A stretch of 64,000 bases of DNA from Mycobacterium botniense (GTDB lineage: Bacteria; Actinomycetota; Actinomycetes; Mycobacteriales; Mycobacteriaceae): positions 1,550,001 through 1,614,000 of the forward strand of contig NZ_BLKW01000002.1 in the NCBI RefSeq assembly GCF_010723305.1, in the 5' to 3' direction. How positions within the stretch are numbered: position 1 is the stretch's first letter; each line of letters begins with the position of its first letter. The notes under the pieces were generated by a model. It did not search any database. It had not been told where the DNA came from and saw only the letters and a list, made by a program, of their open reading frames with translations. A program made the position numbers and the translations under genes. This document shows, in pieces, positions 15,086-22,843 of the stretch.

Positions 15086-16147
15086 TCAGTGAAGCGGTCG
15101 CCGCAATGACGTCTGGCCGGCCTTCCATGATGTCAGAAGTGTTTCCGACAGCCGGCTTTCGACAACGTTGTAGGCTCGTATACCGAAGACCACATCGCGT
15201 TCCAGATGCGGCTCTCGGGCCAGCAGATCGCCAACCACATCACGGCGCACGGCTTGGCCGTGCGCCGCGCCGGTCTGGGCGTGTTGACAGTAGAAGGCCA
15301 GGCACGCAGCCGGCGCGCCCAGCCGTTGCAGGGCCGCGACCAGCTGGCGCGATCCCGGCGGCGAGGTGATTTCGGTCGCTGCGAAATGTCCCACGGCGGC
15401 TCCGCGCCACCGGCGGTGCAGCCCGAATAACGACATCAGGTTGACCACCGCCAGCGACTCCGCGGGCACCGCATCCAGGTAGCCCGCATACGTCGCATCA
15501 AGATCCGCGGCGGTCAGCAAGTCCGCGAACAGCGATTGACGCATTGCTTGTCCACGTCCGGCCCCGTACTCGGCGAATTCGAGGGCGACAAAGGAGGCCT
15601 TGGCCGGACCGGATAGCCGTGGGATCGCCCACGCATGCGGATCGCCTTCTTTGAGGTGAGAAAGTGATCGGTGCACGAAATACTCGCGCATCTGGTCCCA
15701 CGTCGCGTGGTCGCGCAGGTAATGCGACACGTCGGCGCCCTCGATCGGTTCCATGATGAGTGACTCGATTTCGGCAATCGCGGTGTGGTGGGCGTCAATC
15801 GGGCCGATGTCGCGATGCAGCCCAGTGAGGAAGATGCGCTCTAACTGAGCACGTAGATCGAGCAGCGCCGGATGCCACTCCCAAGCGGGGTCTGCACCAG
15901 CAAACCCCCGGTAGTGCAGCTCATAACACATATACAGCGCCAATTGGAGGTCAAGACCATAGGGGTCGGCATCGCAGACCGAAGCACCGATGTGCACGGG
16001 CTGGCTGTGCGGCGCAGGTTGGATGAGCCACCGCCGGACCGTCATCGAGAGCGGACCGTACGGCTCGGGTAGCTGCGGCTCACTGGCTGACGCCGGCGTG
16101 CTGGTGTGCGGATAGTGGGGGGCTGCAGCGCGTCCGGTTTTGGGCAT
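15086..16147 (-). CDS. Iron-containing redox enzyme family (haem-oxygenase-like fold) protein
   Basis: A 353-residue protein of the haem-oxygenase-like diiron superfamily. The N-terminal 35 residues are Pro/Ser-rich. The core is helical, with ELHYRGF, EIESLIMEPIEGAD, EFAEYGAGRG and HFAATEITSP as candidate metal-ligand-bearing helices. It ends in the typical HAQTGAAHGQAVRRDVVGDL segment. Substrate and reaction are unknown; relatives oxidise or decarboxylate small molecules using iron. The start ATG 16147 is preceded by an excellent GAAGGAG with 5-6 bases of spacing. A SigF-like promoter lies about 110 bases upstream. The gene is downstream of, and on the same strand as, the stressosome operon, but 320 bases separate it from the last operon gene, so it is probably transcribed on its own. 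Confidence 0.82.
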   Translation of the reverse strand: MPKTGRAAAPHYPHTSTPASASEPQLPEPYGPLSMTVRRWLIQPAPHSQPVHIGASVCDADPYGLDLQLALYMCYELHYRGFAGADPAWEWHPALLDLRAQLERIFLTGLHRDIGPIDAHHTAIAEIESLIMEPIEGADVSHYLRDHATWDQMREYFVHRSLSHLKEGDPHAWAIPRLSGPAKASFVALEFAEYGAGRGQAMRQSLFADLLTAADLDATYAGYLDAVPAESLAVVNLMSLFGLHRRWRGAAVGHFAATEITSPPGSRQLVAALQRLGAPAACLAFYCQHAQTGAAHGQAVRRDVVGDLLAREPHLERDVVFGIRAYNVVESRLSETLLTSWKAGQTSLRRPLH

Positions 16148-16467
16148 CGTCGCTCCTTCTCGGCCCGTTCGGATGACCCGAACTGTCAACCCGCGGCGTC
16201 ACTCGGCGACCGTGTGGCCCGCGCGTGGAATCAATACCGGGTGACGCACGCCGTATACCCGTGAGCTGCCACGGATCAAACAGTGAACAGCGGGGTGCAC
16301 AAACCGCGGTCAGAGCCGGCAATCGGGCAGTCGGTGACTACCGCGGCCCGGTGGGCCGGTAACCGGCGTGCTCATCCGGCGAGAGGAGTGACTGGTGTGG
16401 ATTGGAACTGTTTGTCGAAAGCCGAGAAGGAGGAGTCTGCGTACACGCCACGCCCGCGAACAGATCG
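16148..16467. other. 320-bp gap between the molybdopterin oxidoreductase and haem-oxygenase-like genes
   Basis: Contains the SigF-like promoter at 16255-16281 and the GAAGGAG ribosome-binding site just upstream of 16147. I see no credible coding sequence in the remainder, and no U-rich terminator after the oxidoreductase stop at 16468. Confidence 0.5.
16255..16281 (-). promoter_or_regulatory. SigF/SigB-type promoter candidate for the haem-oxygenase-like gene
   Basis: On the minus strand, GTTT (16281-16278) is followed by a 17-base spacer and GGGTAT (16260-16255). The coding start is at 16147, which would give a 5' untranslated region of about 100 bases. The pattern is the same as the candidate before the F420 oxidoreductase gene, with a spacer two bases longer. 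The rest of the 16148-16467 gap shows no gene. Confidence 0.5.
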
Positions 16468-17601
16468 TCAGATCGGCATGCGGTACCCGTAAAATTCGTG
16501 GTCTTCGTTGTAGCCGCCTTGGCCGTATCCCAGCTGAGCGAAACTCTCCACAAACTCGATGCCCTCGATCCATTTGACTTGTTTGAAGCCGAGTTCGCGC
16601 TCATTTCGCAGCCGTAGCGGAGCGCCATGGGATACGTTGAGCGGCTTCCCGTTCATTTCGTAAGCCAGCAGACACGTCGGTTCGCGCATGTGCCCGATTT
16701 GGTGGCAGTCGTAGTAGCGCCCTTCTTCTGCTCCACCGGCTCCTTCGGCCAACGAGTAAAACACCACCCAGCGGGCCGACGGCAGCGGGCGCACGATGTC
16801 GAGGATGTCAGCCATGCGCACCCCTCCCCATTTAGCGATGCCCGACCAGCCCTGGATACAGTAATGCTGGGTGACGGTTTCGTGTTTGGGCAGCGCGCGC
16901 AGCTCATCGTAGGATAGATTAATCGGGTTTTCGACTAGCCCCGCTATCCGCAGCGAATAATCTTTCCAATTGCTGGCCTGCAGCTTCCGGTAGTGTTCGG
17001 ATGTGGGTATCGTGCCATTGGGCCAGAGGTACGGGGAAATATCTTTTTCAGAATATGTGGCATTCGGATGGGACCACTCCATCAATGACTTCACCCACCC
17101 GACCATGCAACGACCTACTATTTGGACCACAGCGGGATAGCGGAGTGTCATGGGCGATGCAATCAACCACAGACCGGTAATGATGACCATGGCCACCCCG
17201 TAGATCAGCAGCGCCCAATACGATTGGGTATTCTTGCCGAGGACGATATGGTTGAGATTGGCGACGAGCCCGGTGGTGAATACCATCACTGTGTGAACGA
17301 TAATGAAGAACACCATCCACACAAGAACCGCAAAATGAATGGTCCGCGCAACCTGCCGATTGAAAATGCCCCGTCCGAAACCGAACCGTGCCGCAATCGC
17401 CGGCGCTTGCAACAGGCCGGTGATAAATGCCAATGGCGCGGCGATGAACACCGTAGTGAAGTAGGCGAGAATCTGCAATCCGTTGTAGTTGGTCCAACCC
17501 TGGTTTGGCGGAAAATCAAGCGAGGCGTATTGAATCCCCGTCGACACGGCATTGGGGAGAACGGCCGCGCAGTCTTGGCGCGTCAGAATTTGTGATGTCA
17601 C
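16468..17601 (-). CDS. Molybdopterin-dependent oxidoreductase with truncated cytochrome b561-like membrane part
   Basis: A 377-residue protein. Three hydrophobic helices (about 42-68, 85-112, 126-150) belong to a cytochrome b561-like membrane domain. A sulfite-oxidase-fold molybdopterin domain covers about residues 200-365. The Cys in HYCIQGWSGIAKWGG near residue 245 is in the position of the molybdenum ligand. Proteins of this design usually have another N-terminal region with the first helix or helices and haem-ligand His; I recall the Rv0218 type as about 440 residues. Here the frame starts in the middle of that domain at GTG 17601, whose bases overlap the stop of the upstream sensor gene (GTGA). 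The upstream codons in frame do not encode the missing helices. It may be a shortened but expressed form, or the remains of a longer gene joined to the operon. Confidence 0.75.
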   Translation of the reverse strand: MTSQILTRQDCAAVLPNAVSTGIQYASLDFPPNQGWTNYNGLQILAYFTTVFIAAPLAFITGLLQAPAIAARFGFGRGIFNRQVARTIHFAVLVWMVFFIIVHTVMVFTTGLVANLNHIVLGKNTQSYWALLIYGVAMVIITGLWLIASPMTLRYPAVVQIVGRCMVGWVKSLMEWSHPNATYSEKDISPYLWPNGTIPTSEHYRKLQASNWKDYSLRIAGLVENPINLSYDELRALPKHETVTQHYCIQGWSGIAKWGGVRMADILDIVRPLPSARWVVFYSLAEGAGGAEEGRYYDCHQIGHMREPTCLLAYEMNGKPLNVSHGAPLRLRNERELGFKQVKWIEGIEFVESFAQLGYGQGGYNEDHEFYGYRMPI

Positions 17602-19793
17602 ACGACGAAGCGCATTTCCACGGTGGTCCCGGTTGTGGTGCAGTTGAGGTCGACCTGGTGGCTGACGGCCCGGATCAGCGGCAGGCCCCGCCCGCCACGA
17701 TGGTCATCGGCACCCGGGGTCTTCCAGGAACCGGAGTCGGCGACGCGCACACGAACTCCGGAGCCGTCGACGTTGGCGTCGACCATCATCGTTCCCCGGT
17801 CATGTCCACGGTATGCGTGCTCGACACTGTTGGTGCAGGCCTCGTTTACGGCCAAGACGATGTCGGAAATGAGCGCTTCCGGAACGGTCAAAGCGCTCAG
17901 CCAGCTGGCGAGCTGATGTCTGATATCCACTAAATAGTCAGCAGTAGCATCGGTTTCGATCCGAAGAGGGCTAAGAATCCTTCGATATAAGACGATTGCG
18001 ACGTCGTCGTCGTACCCTTCTGCCGGTGTCAGTTCCCGAAGCACCGCATCCGCGACAGCCTCGACAGGTAAATTCATCGTGTTCGTGAGAACCTCAGCGG
18101 CACGCGCGATCCCTGCGTCGATCGAATCATGTTTCCGTTCTACGAGGCCGTCGGTAAACAACATCAGGGTCGCACCCGGCGGCAGCACCTGGGATGCCTG
18201 CGGGCGGGACCGGTCTCGGTGCACCACGAGCGGAACCGAACTCGCAGCGCTTAACAAGGTTGCCCCGGACTGCGGTGTAGCAAGCACCGCGGGAACGTGA
18301 CCGGCGCTGCTGTACTGCAGGACGCCGGTTTCGGTCTCCAGTGTCGCCAGAAACACTGTCGTGCAGTAGGCACCCGGTATGAGCTCCGCCACCGAGTCGA
18401 GTTGTTCGAGCAACAGGGCTGGTTCGGCGCCGGTCAGTAAAAGCGCGCGTGCCGAACTGCGAAGCTGCCCCATCACCGCGGCGGCGGGCAGGCCCCGGCC
18501 CACGCAGTCGCCGACGACGATTCCGATGCGGTGCTCGTCGATGGGCAATACGTCATACCAGTCGCCGCCGATTTCCAGTGGCGGGACAGCGGGTTCGTAG
18601 CGAACGGCAAAACCTGCCGGAAGCTCCAGGGGCGCCAACATGGCACGCTGCAATGTCAGCGAAGTCTCGCGCGCAGTTTCGAACTGTCGGACATGGTGCA
18701 TCGCCAGACCCAGGTGACCGACGAGCATAGTCACCAAGAGTCGATCCTCGGCGCTGATCCGGCGAGGGCCGCCGAACTCCAACCACAGCGCATCGCCGGC
18801 GCCAGAGAGCACCGCGACGATGCCGCGTGACTCACCCGGCATATCGGCCGACTCCACCAGCCGGACCGTAAGCGGCAAGTGGTGGCGGGCTTCCTCAAGC
18901 GTTTGGCGCAGCAGTGGATCGAGATCCCGCCAGCTCGATACGGGCGGCTGGCCCGCTGCCTGCACGACCGGCTCAACATCGTTCGGTGGCCACATGACCA
19001 CGACCACGCGCTGCGCATCGATGGCGGTGCCGCACTCATCGAGAGTGGCCGACAACAACTCGGCAATGTTCTTGGCGACACTGACCGCTGTGGCGAGGCG
19101 CAAGACCGCGCTTTCCCGCGCCGCAAAGGCACGCTCAGCGGTGACGTCGCGGACCGTACCCACATACACGTCCCGATCGCCGCTATAGGCGGTGACCACG
19201 TTGATGCTCACGGCTACCCATAAGAGAGTGCCGCCTTGATGCCGAATCGGTGTCTCGTACTGGACGCTGTTCTCCCGGTTGAGGCGGTCCCACGCCTGCC
19301 GTGCCGCCTTCTTGTCCACCAACCATGGGTGTGGCCACCGGTATGGCAAACCCTCTGCCGGGTAACCGGTGATTTGAGTGAACGCATCGTTGATCTCGAT
19401 GACCGCACCGTCGTGGTCGGCGACGAAAAATCCCTCCTGCAGCGAGTTCACCAAAGCGGTACGGAACTCGTCGCGGTCGGCGAGATCCTCCAACCGCGCC
19501 CGCTGTTCCTCGTAACGTCTCGTGCCGTCGAGGAATCCCCGAGTGACGACGTCGAGCGCGGCCAGTGTCTGCAGCAAAAACTCCAGTGCTGCCGTTCCGT
19601 CGACGCCAGCGTCCTTCGCGAGTTCGTCGATCAGCTGGAAGTGGTGCTCGACGATATCGAGCATGCTGATTTGTTCCCGCAGGGCTTCGCGTCCGAGCTC
19701 ATGTCCGACGGCCAGGCTGGCCTGATCCCGTGCGTCGAGATAGCAGTGCAGCGCCGCTGCATAGTGGAGGCGAAACTTTTCCGCATCGGTCAT
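17598..19793 (-). CDS. RsbU-type phosphatase fused to PAS, GAF and RsbW-like kinase domains
   Basis: A 731-residue cytosolic protein with five parts. Residues 1-100 are helical and resemble the N-terminal RsbT-binding domain of RsbU. PAS occupies about 110-225 and GAF about 230-370. A PP2C/SpoIIE phosphatase spans about 385-605, with metal-binding Asp in GGDWYD (411), VVGDCVG (429), FTDG (548) and the DDD at 595-597. A GHKL ATPase of RsbW type covers about 620-731, with N-box AVNEACTNSVEH (Asn650, Glu651, Asn655), Asp686 in ADSGSW and GRGLPL at 701-706. It could receive RsbT and a PAS/GAF ligand, dephosphorylate an RsbV-like protein and also bind or phosphorylate an anti-anti-sigma factor. 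The ATG overlaps the rsbX stop (ATGA). I keep the domain identities apart from the partner assignments, which are inferred. Confidence 0.9.
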   Translation of the reverse strand: MTDAEKFRLHYAAALHCYLDARDQASLAVGHELGREALREQISMLDIVEHHFQLIDELAKDAGVDGTAALEFLLQTLAALDVVTRGFLDGTRRYEEQRARLEDLADRDEFRTALVNSLQEGFFVADHDGAVIEINDAFTQITGYPAEGLPYRWPHPWLVDKKAARQAWDRLNRENSVQYETPIRHQGGTLLWVAVSINVVTAYSGDRDVYVGTVRDVTAERAFAARESAVLRLATAVSVAKNIAELLSATLDECGTAIDAQRVVVVMWPPNDVEPVVQAAGQPPVSSWRDLDPLLRQTLEEARHHLPLTVRLVESADMPGESRGIVAVLSGAGDALWLEFGGPRRISAEDRLLVTMLVGHLGLAMHHVRQFETARETSLTLQRAMLAPLELPAGFAVRYEPAVPPLEIGGDWYDVLPIDEHRIGIVVGDCVGRGLPAAAVMGQLRSSARALLLTGAEPALLLEQLDSVAELIPGAYCTTVFLATLETETGVLQYSSAGHVPAVLATPQSGATLLSAASSVPLVVHRDRSRPQASQVLPPGATLMLFTDGLVERKHDSIDAGIARAAEVLTNTMNLPVEAVADAVLRELTPAEGYDDDVAIVLYRRILSPLRIETDATADYLVDIRHQLASWLSALTVPEALISDIVLAVNEACTNSVEHAYRGHDRGTMMVDANVDGSGVRVRVADSGSWKTPGADDHRGGRGLPLIRAVSHQVDLNCTTTGTTVEMRFVV

Positions 19794-20416
19794 GGCGATG
19801 CACCTCGGTGACGCGCGGCAAGCACCGACGCATCATCGGTGTCCTTGGCGTGTTTACCCAGGACCTGGTCGCTGATCGCCACGGCGGACGCAGCGAAGTC
19901 GACGCTGTCCAAATGTCCTTCGCTGATACCGTCGCTTGCGATGACCAGCAGATCGCCGGGGCGGATTGCAACGTTCCGCGCGACTACCGTGTCCGGCATA
20001 CGGAATCCGACAATGCCGCTGGCGAGCGGAGTGGCAGAACGAATCGCGACACCGCTTGGCGCCTTAGCGATGAGGTTCGCGGTGACATTGCCGACGCCGA
20101 TCCAGCTCAGCATGTCAGATTCGAAATCGATCCGGGCCAGGGTCATCGCAGCCCCTCTGGTGGACATCAAGGCCCGGTGACACAGTTCGATCATCGCCTC
20201 AAGGGGTTCGGCGCGGGCGTGCTTGAGCACCTCCACCGCGCACAGTGCCGCCGTTTCGGCTTCCTCGCCGTGGCCCAATCCGTCCAGCCCGGCGAACAAT
20301 GCGGCCTGACCTCCCACGTCGAGCGCGATCACATAGTCCCCGCAGGCCTGCTCACCGGGCAGTGAGCGGGTTGCCCCTGCCCACTCGATTGGACCGATCC
20401 GGCCGTGCTCACGCAC
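19790..20416 (-). CDS. rsbX: RsbX-type stressosome phosphatase
   Basis: A 208-residue single-domain PP2C/SpoIIE phosphatase. The metal-binding DGLGHGEEAETAA starts at residue 45 and a second acidic site is in ASDGISEGH. In Bacillus, RsbX removes phosphate from RsbR and RsbS after stress and so resets the stressosome. Its place directly after rsbT is the standard RsbRSTX order. The GTG at 20416 overlaps the end of rsbT by eight bases, and its own stop overlaps the start of the large phosphatase gene by four. Confidence 0.88.
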   Translation of the reverse strand: MREHGRIGPIEWAGATRSLPGEQACGDYVIALDVGGQAALFAGLDGLGHGEEAETAALCAVEVLKHARAEPLEAMIELCHRALMSTRGAAMTLARIDFESDMLSWIGVGNVTANLIAKAPSGVAIRSATPLASGIVGFRMPDTVVARNVAIRPGDLLVIASDGISEGHLDSVDFAASAVAISDQVLGKHAKDTDDASVLAARHRGASP

Positions 20417-20819
20417 TCGGCGGAACCCATTTCCACATCTCGACGACTGTGCCCTGCCCGGCGGCGGATTCCACGATCAACCGGTCCATAAGCCGGCGGG
20501 CACCGGGCAGACCCAACCCAAGCCCGCGGCTGGTCGAATACCCATCCTCCAGCGCCCTCTCGACGTCGGCAATACCGGGTCCGGCATCCTCGGCGCGCAC
20601 CACCAACGCTTTGCGACCCTCCCGGTCGGCCACCATGACCCGAACCGCGCCGCGACCAGCGTAGCTGGTGATGTTGCGTGCAACCTCGGAGATCGCCGTA
20701 GCGATCATGGTGACATCTGTTAACGAAAAACCGAGATCACTGGCGAGTTGGTGACCCGCCTGACGGGCAGTGACAATGTCGTCGGGGTTATCGACCTCGA
20801 CGACCACGTCATCTGCCAT
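20409..20819 (-). CDS. rsbT: RsbT-type switch kinase
   Basis: A 136-residue GHKL-fold serine kinase, close in length to Bacillus RsbT (133). The N-box AISEVARNITSYAG contains Glu45 and Asn49, DAGPGI at 78-83 is the G1 box, and GLGLGLPGARRL at 99-110 is the G2 box. This is the RsbT form rather than the RsbW form. RsbT is held in the stressosome by RsbS; under stress it phosphorylates RsbR and RsbS, leaves, and activates RsbU. ATG 20819 is preferred over the TTG at 20831; in either case the start lies at or near the rsbS stop (20809-20811) and inside its last codons, so synthesis of RsbS and RsbT is coupled. Confidence 0.92.
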   Translation of the reverse strand: MADDVVVEVDNPDDIVTARQAGHQLASDLGFSLTDVTMIATAISEVARNITSYAGRGAVRVMVADREGRKALVVRAEDAGPGIADVERALEDGYSTSRGLGLGLPGARRLMDRLIVESAAGQGTVVEMWKWVPPSA

Positions 20820-21198
20820 CGTCGCGTCCAATCGTTGATTTGCCTTGGGCGCGGTGACGATTCAATAGAGCAAGGCCTTCTTCCAGGTCCAGTGCGGTGT
20901 GCATGTCCTCGAACCCAAGACCGAGCTGGACCATCGCGAAGGCCACCTCCGGCTGTACACCCACGATCACGGTTTCGGCCCCGCGCAGCCGCGTCATGTG
21001 CGCAATGGTGCGCAACGAGCGGGCAGCAAACGAATCCATCACGTCGATGGCGGTGACGTCGACGATGATTCCTTGTGCGCGAAACCGGCTGACACGTTCC
21101 ATGAGGTCGTGCTGGAGGCGTTCGGTGTCGGAGTCGGTGAGCGCAGCCTGCACCGTCGCGATCAGAATCGGGCCCTGTTTCAGGATTGGTACCGGCAT
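20809..21198 (-). CDS. rsbS: RsbS-type STAS scaffold protein
   Basis: A 129-residue single STAS domain. Ser56 in DVMDSFAARSL lines up with Bacillus subtilis Ser59, the residue phosphorylated by RsbT. The C-terminal half (VGVQPEVAFAMVQLGLGFEDMHTAL, read in parts) follows RsbS closely. RsbS forms the core of the stressosome with RsbR and sequesters RsbT. The ATG at 21198 is 24 bases after the rsbR stop. The last few residues (after about 118) extend beyond the STAS domain and overlap the start of rsbT. Confidence 0.92.
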   Translation of the reverse strand: MPVPILKQGPILIATVQAALTDSDTERLQHDLMERVSRFRAQGIIVDVTAIDVMDSFAARSLRTIAHMTRLRGAETVIVGVQPEVAFAMVQLGLGFEDMHTALDLEEGLALLNRHRAQGKSTIGRDDGR

Positions 21199-21221
21199 AA
21201 CACGTCTGCGGTGGGACCGGG

Positions 21222-22124
21222 TTACCCGGTCTGTTCGCCGGTGCGGGTGACTTCGTAGCCCAGCAGACGTTCGGCCTCCTCGATACCGCCCTGCAGGTCG
21301 CCGACCGCATTCATCTTCGACAGGTCCAGCCCGATCGTCACCAGGGTCAGCGCGATCTCCGAGGACAGACCGGTGATGATCACGCTCGCGCCCATCAACC
21401 CCGATGCGTCGACCGTCTGCACGAGGTGGTTGGCGACGGTCGAGTCGATGGTGGGCACACCGGTAATGTCGATGACCACGACTTTCGCCCGGTTCGCCCG
21501 GATGGCGCGCAGCAGCTGTTCGGTGAGTTGTCTGGCGCGTTGACTGTCCAGGACGCCGATGATCGGCAGGATCAGCAACTGCTCACGCACCTGGAGCACC
21601 GGGGTGGACAGCTCGCGGATCGCTTCCTGTTGCTGGCGGATGATCCGCTCGCGTTCCTGGACGAAGCTGACCGCCACCGTGTTGGCAATACGGTTGGCCG
21701 CCGGCTCGTAGGCGTCGAGCACCCTGTTGAGCAGGTCGAAGTCCGACTGGTATTTCTTGAACAAGGAGCGCGCGAGGACGTCCCGCAAAAGCAACACGAT
21801 GCCGACGACCTCGTCGGTCTCCACGCCCCTGGGGATGATCCGCTCGGAGAGGTCACGCGCGTAGGCCTGCAGCGCCTCGACGCTGCCGGTCTCAAGCACC
21901 TCCACATAGTTGTCGTAGACGGCGGTTGCCTCGGAGAAGAGTTCCTCGGGCGTCATGGCGGTGAGGAGCTTCGCCTCGGCGATCCTGCGGGCCCACTCCT
22001 CGCGCAAGGCGGTTCGATTCTGCCGCAGATGCTGAACCAGCTGCGGCAGCAGACCGTCGGTGGAGATCCCGGTCGTCTGCGCGGCGGCAGCGGTACTGGC
22101 GAAACCTGTCGTCGGATCGGACAT
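21222..22124 (-). CDS. rsbR: RsbR-type stressosome sensor
   Basis: A 300-residue protein with an N-terminal helical sensor domain (about 25-155, the place of the non-haem globin fold in RsbR), a coiled linker (about 155-170) and a C-terminal STAS domain (about 172-290). ELSTPVLQV at 171-179 opens the STAS domain, and DITGVPTID at 219-227 is the conserved central strand. The positions equivalent to Bacillus Thr171 and Thr205, judged by their 34-residue spacing, are Ser194 (in GVLDSQRA) and Ser228 (in TIDSTVA). ATG 22124 is preceded by GGGAGG with four bases of spacing; a TTG lies just before it. It is the first gene of the operon, and 166 bases separate its start from the divergent rsfB. Confidence 0.92.
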   Translation of the reverse strand: MSDPTTGFASTAAAAQTTGISTDGLLPQLVQHLRQNRTALREEWARRIAEAKLLTAMTPEELFSEATAVYDNYVEVLETGSVEALQAYARDLSERIIPRGVETDEVVGIVLLLRDVLARSLFKKYQSDFDLLNRVLDAYEPAANRIANTVAVSFVQERERIIRQQQEAIRELSTPVLQVREQLLILPIIGVLDSQRARQLTEQLLRAIRANRAKVVVIDITGVPTIDSTVANHLVQTVDASGLMGASVIITGLSSEIALTLVTIGLDLSKMNAVGDLQGGIEEAERLLGYEVTRTGEQTG

Positions 22125-22290
22125 CAAACCTCCCGGATCCCGCTCGCCCTCGGCAAAAGGCGCGAGTTTTGAGACTAGCGCCGGTGCAGCGGTGTGGGAA
22201 GCGTTGAAGTCGTGTTCTTCTCGCTGTTCGCTGGGTTAGGCTTGCACCGCATCTGCTCCGGGTGGTGGGGCGCTGGATAAAGGATTGCCG
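22125..22290. promoter_or_regulatory. Divergent promoter region between rsbR and rsfB
   Basis: 166 bases hold both promoters. On the minus strand a weak candidate is TTCCCA, 17 bases, TAGTCT, upstream of rsbR. On the plus strand GTTC, 15 bases, GGGTTA upstream of rsfB is a degenerate SigF-like match. Neither is strong enough to be called alone. I found no clean GTTT-N15-17-GGGTAT here. Confidence 0.35.
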
Positions 22291-22659
22291 TTGTCAGCTA
22301 CGGATCCCATGACGACCTCGGTGGGCTACCACGAGGGGATCGCCGTGCTCGCTGTCGACGGTGACGTCGACTTGGTCACCGCTCCGACCCTCGAAGAGGT
22401 GATCGCGACCGTGGTCGCCGATCGCCCCACAGCGCTCGTCATCGATCTCTCTGCGGTGCAGTTTCTCGCCTCGGCAGGGCTCAAACTGCTGGCGGCCACC
22501 CGCGAGAAAATCCGTGGCTCGTCTCGATTTGCAGTGGTCGCACATGGGCCGGCGACACGGCGGCCCATCCACTTGACGGGGCTGGACGAAATGTTCGCTG
22601 TGTACTCCACCGTGGACGATGCGCTGACGGCGATCCAGGACAGCGAATTCGATCACTAG
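22291..22659 (+). CDS. rsfB: RsfB, anti-anti-sigma factor (STAS domain)
   Basis: A 122-residue STAS protein of the RsbV/SpoIIAA type, the same length as M. tuberculosis Rv3687c. The phosphorylation site is Ser61 in FLASAGLKLLA, and the RRPIHLTGLD segment near 90-99 is shared with RsfB. RsfB binds the SigF anti-sigma factor RsbW/UsfX and frees SigF; phosphorylation of the serine blocks this. I chose TTG 22291 because AAAGGA lies six bases upstream and the N-terminus (SATDP) then matches the family; a second TTG at 22285 is in frame. It is divergent from the stressosome operon, whose kinase and phosphatase domains are plausible regulators of its Ser61. Confidence 0.92.
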   Translation: MSATDPMTTSVGYHEGIAVLAVDGDVDLVTAPTLEEVIATVVADRPTALVIDLSAVQFLASAGLKLLAATREKIRGSSRFAVVAHGPATRRPIHLTGLDEMFAVYSTVDDALTAIQDSEFDH

Positions 22660-22769
22660 AGCAGCTGCATCGTCGGCTTCTCAAGTGGTGCGGCGAACCC
22701 GGGGTTTTGCCTGCTTGTGTGATCACAGCGCCCGCGCCCGGTGATCGCCTCAGAGCCTCATACCACGAG

Positions 22770-22843
<74 letters not shown>

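Follow-up and report, generated by a model that had tools for sequence, protein, structure and literature searches.

Among the described systems closest to the locus analysed here, the nearest is in Mycobacterium itself, where Ramesh et al. 2021 (PMC8115616) report rsbR, rsbS, rsbT, rsbX and rsbUW in most slow growers, describe mutual interactions and foci of the proteins in M. marinum, and read the stressosome as acquired after most slow growers had split from the rapid growers. In M. smegmatis, RsbW2 phosphorylates RsfB on Ser63 and so controls it (PMC7693655), RsfR dephosphorylates RsfB (PMC7693655, PMC10950880), and in Bacillus subtilis RsbT acts on the RsbU_N domain of RsbU together with its linker (PMC12143880). 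We analysed a 64,000-nucleotide stretch of M. botniense (contig NZ_BLKW01000002.1, positions 1,550,001 to 1,614,000; hereafter the window, from a genome of 4.34 Mb in 4 contigs) which carries rsbR-rsbS-rsbT-rsbX-rsbU on the minus strand and, divergent on the plus strand, rsfB, together spanning positions 17598-22659. The operon is that of one more mycobacterium in a known system; the initial annotation had implied that the module was new to mycobacteria, whilst RsbRST and 'rsbUW' were already published (PMC8115616).

Our reading of this locus, to which we give a probability of roughly 0.8, is that the operon encodes a stressosome that would hold RsbT and release it under stress, upon which RsbT would act on RsbU, RsfB would be dephosphorylated and SigF would be freed. 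Genomic evidence for RsfB as the probable target is strong, and the same locus in relatives points to repeated loss of its stressosome part. The features of the locus, in window coordinates, are:

17598..19793, minus strand: rsbU, an RsbU_N-PAS-GAF-like-PP2C-HATPase fusion of 731 residues (rsbUW in the M. marinum paper)
17607..17948, minus strand: RsbW-type HATPase_c_2 kinase domain of rsbU, residues 616-729, N-box Glu651/Asn655
17979..18539, minus strand: SpoIIE/PP2C phosphatase domain of rsbU, residues 419-605, 138.6 bits
18642..19067, minus strand: GAF-like fold of rsbU, residues 243-384, predicted from the secondary structure of the model
19134..19466, minus strand: PAS domain of rsbU, residues 110-220, by Pfam
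19548..19766, minus strand: RsbU_N domain of rsbU, residues 10-82, the predicted RsbT dock, Pfam 62.8 bits
19790..20416, minus strand: rsbX, PP2C phosphatase
20409..20831, minus strand: rsbT, GHKL switch kinase, start TTG, alternative ATG at 20819
20809..21198, minus strand: rsbS, single STAS domain, Ser56
21222..22124, minus strand: rsbR, ATG at 22124, RsbRD_N-like helical sensor domain plus STAS, Ser228 and Thr260
22125..22284: rsbR-rsfB divergent intergenic region, in which the strict motif finds no SigF-type promoter
22285..22659, plus strand: rsfB, anti-SigF antagonist, STAS, phospho-acceptor position Ser63, start TTG, alternative ATG at 22309

Gene order, motifs and domain make-up can be read directly from the DNA. 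The genes rsbR, rsbS and rsbT are contiguous, as stressosome membership demands, and rsbS/rsbT, rsbT/rsbX and rsbX/rsbU overlap. Five genes in the RsbRSTX order followed by RsbU had been called in the initial annotation, and Pfam and PDB sequence matches bear this out; its distance of 166 bases between rsbR and rsfB needs correcting to 160 (rsbR ATG to rsfB TTG; 184 to the rsfB ATG), whilst the divergence of rsfB from rsbR is confirmed and recurs in all 80 named relative loci (the best 80 of 523 RsbR relatives). Of 110 loci retrieved through their similarity to RsbT or RsbR, the window locus included, 107 keep the R-S-T-X-U order, so the arrangement is not due to chance; the exceptions, L047, L078 and L094, are without an RsbU match, and L047 is also without an RsbX match.

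RsbR matches Listeria RsbR (PDB sequence) with an E-value of 3.5e-30 over 33-294, its STAS domain scores 55 bits in Pfam and its RsbRD_N domain 22.9 bits, slightly below the cut-off of 24.3, and its model, built on 18 rows with a predicted template modelling score (pTM) of 0.49, finds 7b0u RsbR in Foldseek (E 6e-12), a fold match that we count as supporting only. Ser228 and Thr260, which we take to be its two phospho-positions, are invariant in 125 aligned rows. RsbS matches Listeria RsbS (PDB sequence, E 4e-25), and its Ser56 is, as first proposed, a serine in 127 of 127 aligned rows, the window locus counted. RsbT has the N-box Glu49/Asn53, Asp82-Gly84-Gly86 and Gly103-Gly105-Gly107, and the claim that its motifs are intact holds for the N-box and G-box residues in the alignment; its best solved match is SpoIIAB, with no solved RsbT among its matches. 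RsbX matches Moorella 3zt9 (E 8e-22) and B. subtilis RsbX (E 2e-11). Key residues of RsbS, RsbR, RsbT and RsfB are invariant in 125-133 rows, save one row at one RsbT glycine. Median conservation of RsbR over the 110 loci is 92% (99% in the STAS part), with RsbX at 59%, RsbU at 66% and RsfB at 62%; for RsbR this is the opposite of what is expected of a fast-adapting sensor.

The last gene does carry the PP2C phosphatase assigned to it at the outset, but it is not a plain RsbU-type protein, as the PAS domain, the GAF-like fold and the RsbW-type kinase domain had been overlooked. The phosphatase keeps its metal-binding aspartates (D411, D429, D548 and D595-597) invariant in 24 rows, and RsbU and RsbX are the only two SpoIIE-family matches in the genome. 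The kinase domain is the best HATPase_c_2 match of the genome (98 bits), and the best solved relative of RsbU is the RsbU-RsbW part of Rv1364c. A GAF-like assignment agrees with a weak GAF_2 match, under the cut-off, in relative L118 and with PAS-GAF phytochromes among the Foldseek matches, and the AlphaFold2 model (mean predicted local distance difference test score 79.7, pTM 0.45) places a helix at residues 66-119. On the simplest reading, the two halves of RsbU would do both the phosphorylation and the dephosphorylation of RsfB here.

RsfB matches M. tuberculosis RsfB (8ih8, E 1e-40), and its Ser63, which bears the same number as Ser63 of M. smegmatis RsfB, is a serine in 133 of 133 rows. 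Another genus of the same family (g2) has the genes co-directional as RsbR-S-T-X-U-RsfB, with rsfB last, in six of six fetched loci, and an operon ending in rsfB is a simple reason to consider RsfB as the substrate. The SigF partner-switch set is present, as the RsfB ortholog with Ser63 is joined by a separate rsbW1-sigF pair on contig C2 (C2:250476-251641 of the window genome, G000). No RsbW2-like match was found in this genome at E<=1e-20. That a stressosome feeds into SigF through RsfB, as the initial annotation had supposed, thus gains support from the adjacency of rsfB in two arrangements, from the SpoIIE matches being two only and from the invariant Ser63, and we too put it forward as a proposal. 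Read by eye, the N-box of RsbW1 carries Arg in place of Asn, in line with the M. smegmatis RsbW1, which is without kinase activity (PMC7693655). The gene sigF occurs twice, at C4:266332-267009 (L192:4321-5076) and C2:250476-251153 (L193:3466-4220), and over 756 bases the two agree at 99.5%. The C2 copy adjoins rsbW1/usfX, no HATPase_c_2 match neighbours the C4 copy, and the double occurrence may stem from a recent duplication or from the assembly.

In the mechanism that we propose, and of which we infer every biochemical step, RsbR and RsbS would build the core, and under stress RsbT would phosphorylate RsbR (Ser228, Thr260) and RsbS (Ser56). Free RsbT would dock on RsbU_N and the helical linker, the PP2C domain of RsbU would remove the phosphate from RsfB Ser63, and unphosphorylated RsfB would bind the anti-sigma factor RsbW1/UsfX, so that SigF is released. 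RsbX would reset the core, the RsbW-type domain of RsbU would likely re-phosphorylate RsfB, and the PAS and GAF-like domains, lying between dock and phosphatase, would be a likely second input.

Several observations weigh against this reading. The domain arrangement of RsbU and RsbR is modelled unreliably (pTM 0.45 and 0.49), and RsbR has Ser at the first phospho-position where Listeria RsbR has Thr. The genome holds eight STAS matches, and as seven of these (RsbR and RsbS included) are other than RsfB, RsfB is not the sole possible substrate. RsbW2-like proteins occur at E<=1e-20 in 134 of 198 genomes drawn from the genus, many of them alongside RsbU; the idea that RsbW2 and the RsbU fusion strictly exclude each other, which we had considered, does not hold genus-wide. 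Lastly, the strict SigF-type motif, in the form which we take to define it, occurs between rsbR and rsfB in none of 81 intergenic sequences. The rsb operon of the B. subtilis sigB system is autoregulated; SigF autoregulation of the window operon was dropped as a candidate owing to this absence. With one mismatch allowed per box, the window has weak SigF-type matches directed at rsfB, and the usfX-sigF region does carry the strict motif.

Across the same 198 genomes, RsbT was found in 70 (E<=1e-10), and in 63 of these the spacing fits the full operon. Contig ends cut the locus in G005 and G103, whilst in G068, G125, G170 and G183 RsbT adjoins both rsfB and rsbU, and the spacing leaves no place for RsbR, RsbS or RsbX. 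A further 19 RsbT-negative genomes retain rsbU beside rsfB, eight with RsbU_N (seven of class B plus G030, locus L129, whose rsbU is split) and 11 without (class C, in which the RsbU match starts only at residue 88-93). A search of 25 genomes (the four with rsbT-rsbU, the 19 RsbT-negative with rsbU, G157 and the window genome) found RsbR in the window genome and G157, with a fragment in G170, and RsbS in the window genome and G157. In the 23 reduced loci fetched, rsfB is still the neighbour of rsbU or rsbT-rsbU. Scores for RsbU_N are 47.8-62.8 bits in the 11 proteins scanned where RsbT is present and 21.3-43.2 bits in eight from RsbT-negative genomes (two below the Pfam cut-off of 25.5), all of them related rows and not independent points, and the five class C proteins scanned of 11 give no match up to E 10; the score thus tracks the presence of RsbT, which suggests that the dock was lost with it.

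The orphaned RsbT of three rsbT-rsbU loci (L151, L153, L154) is under purifying selection, with a ratio of nonsynonymous to synonymous substitution rates of 0.07-0.15 against full-operon kin, slightly higher than in control pairs (0.04-0.09). Decay of its kinase core, the candidate alternative, was not found, and the N-box and G-box residues are kept. Substitution of Arg52 or Arg102 in three of the four rsbT-rsbU RsbT proteins is suggestive only: Arg102 is Ser in two other RsbT rows by pattern (unreadable in 24 of 127 rows), and the alignment has 5 of 131 non-Arg overall.

Other arrangements were also seen. In twelve further loci (L136-L146, L148) an rsfB-like gene (45-51% identity) precedes a stand-alone RsbW2-like gene; several of these loci also have a PP2C gene close by, which in L137 is a receiver-PP2C by Pfam. 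None of the 12 genomes has an rsbU ortholog (the match in G149 is due to another GAF protein), an absence that is description only, as these loci were chosen because rsbU is not beside rsfB. One genome of the genus (G157, locus L130) holds a distant second stressosome type (RsbR 50%, RsbS 39%, RsbT 41% and RsbX-like 29% identity), its RsbR having a longer front part. In the L122-L128 clade extra PP2C phosphatases flank the locus, a receiver-PP2C beside rsfB and a PAS-PP2C beyond rsbU (domains by Pfam on L122 and L125 only), and L157, which retains the full stressosome, is flanked by similar PP2C matches. In another family of the order, L228 (G290) shows RsbT-, RsbR-, RsbS- and RsbU_N-like matches whose arrangement differs.

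Relics of the missing genes were found in the reduced loci. The rsfB-rsbT gap of L151 contains the start and end of RsbR (the end read by eye) and the start of RsbS, that of L153 an RsbR start joined directly to the last part of the STAS domain, and that of L154 an N-terminal piece of RsbR and the end of RsbS (read by eye); the gap of L152 holds no recognisable relic. C-terminal pieces of RsbX precede rsbU in L123, L124, L126, L127 and L128, and also in L122, where the relic comes from the initial search alone, outside the control comparison. No RsbX relic was seen in L125 or L129, the latter covered by the initial search only, and no relic lies upstream of the class C genes in any of 11 loci. 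Compared with 440 reversed control segments (four query sets), no control scored as high as RsbR in L153 and L154, RsbS in L151 or the five RsbX matches, whilst the weak matches to RsbR in L123 and RsbS in L154 were reached by seven and four controls, respectively.

In maximum-likelihood gene trees of RsbU (residues 90-729) the rows lacking RsbR, RsbS and RsbT are scattered over several places. With the g2 outgroup (61 rows) they need six changes, at least five of them forced by well-supported branches, or seven if loss is irreversible, and a single clade of these rows is rejected (approximately unbiased test, p-AU 5e-42). With a paralog root (62 rows) the full-operon rows need seven label changes, six of them forced in the same way. 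L151, a locus with rsbT-rsbU and relics, is sister to class C in the paralog-rooted tree (support 99/94), which suggests the order full operon, then rsbT-rsbU, then rsbU without the dock. Full-operon L157 lies inside the class B clade (100/100), its exact position supported at 88/63 and its assembly (G112) listed with 7% contamination, whilst the long branches of L152 and L082 meet, leaving the position of L152 unsure. Relics and outgroup together point to reduced forms that arose by repeated loss, against the published late gain.

The converse, a primitive state of the loci with rsbT-rsbU or only rsbU and a later gain of the stressosome, is what the late acquisition inferred by Ramesh et al. 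2021 (PMC8115616) would favour, and class C, with no trace of RsbU_N and no upstream relic, fits it, as do L152, L125 and L129 with theirs missing. We nevertheless consider it highly improbable, given RsbR or RsbS relics in three of four rsbT-rsbU loci, RsbX relics in six of seven class B loci, a full operon in another genus of the family, and the six changes and rejected single clade on the RsbU tree. More weight, though still well short of an even chance, goes to direct binding of SigF by the C-terminal domain of RsbU, which would then be an anti-sigma factor itself and make the fusion act as RsbW and not only as the RsfB kinase. Its kinship with the RsbU-RsbW part of Rv1364c speaks for this; the genome has its separate rsbW1-sigF pair, however, and the stand-alone kinase RsbW2 of M. 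smegmatis did not bind SigF (PMC7693655).

It is also improbable, if less so than a primitive state of the reduced loci, that the true output is another STAS protein or sigma factor and rsfB a mere neighbour. With its eight STAS matches and with sigF in two near-identical copies, the genome leaves room for such an output, yet rsfB adjoins the operon both divergently and, in g2, as its last co-directional gene, and is still beside rsbU or rsbT-rsbU in the reduced loci. Returning to the stressosome that signals through RsfB, its apparent dismantling in relatives has likely left simpler versions of the switch. We give even odds to a broader picture in which rsfB is a fixed socket for exchangeable inputs and the stressosome has been taken apart again and again from its front end, core and sensor going first and leaving a working RsbT-RsbU two-protein switch, then RsbT and the dock, leaving a PAS-GAF-PP2C-kinase protein that gates RsfB alone. 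Natural loci with RsbT-RsbU but no RsbR or RsbS, or with RsbU but no dock, are ready-made experiments on the interdependence of the pathway: they make testable the role of RsbT apart from the stressosome, the PAS/GAF input as a replacement, and whether stressosome-free lineages lost the stressosome or never had it.

On the far side of rsbU, an open reading frame on the minus strand (16468-17601) overlaps the rsbU stop by 4 bases. It was rejected as a sixth operon gene, since its front part is missing and it has no match in any fetched locus, a comparison that includes 61 named loci having the window's next gene (15086-16189) and in which 30 short loci stop before that gene. It is the C-terminal part of a YedYZ/MsrP-like molybdopterin oxidoreductase-cytochrome b fusion (relatives of about 602 residues, up to 83% identity) and is likely a truncated insertion. 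A tRNA-Pro (cgg) lies just downstream of rsfB (22769-22843, minus strand).

Compared with known systems, the locus has the same gene set as M. marinum RsbRST/RsbX/RsbUW, for which the SigF pathway is also proposed as output (PMC8115616); RsbS has 129 residues in both, and RsbR 298 there and 300 here. The main text of that paper uses rsbV and has no occurrence of rsfB, and, in contrast to our data, its accessible text describes no rsbT-rsbU remnants. Titles and abstract beginnings of the covered literature, which excludes most subscription journals, yielded nothing on rsbT-rsbU loci without RsbR and RsbS, mycobacterial stressosome relics or loss of RsbU_N, and the reduced operon forms and their relics are a new comparative result as far as these searches show. 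The M. smegmatis rsfB-rsbW2 locus with RsfSR likewise has RsfB kinase and PP2C phosphatase genes beside rsfB, but that species encodes the kinase in a gene of its own, and its phosphatase has a receiver domain and is under the control of a histidine kinase (PMC7693655, PMC10950880). Rv1364c of M. tuberculosis shares the PAS, PP2C, RsbW-type order (31% identity over PP2C-HATPase), but is without RsbU_N and ends in a STAS domain (PMC10950880), whereas RsbU here has the predicted RsbT dock and no STAS. With the sigB stressosome of B. subtilis and Listeria the locus has in common rsbR-S-T with RsbX and RsbU, the RsbS serine, the RsbT kinase motifs and RsbU_N with PP2C; it differs in having Ser and not Thr at the first phospho-position of RsbR, in the PAS domain, GAF-like fold and kinase domain added to RsbU, and in placing the rsbV-like rsfB divergently with rsbW1-sigF elsewhere in the genome.

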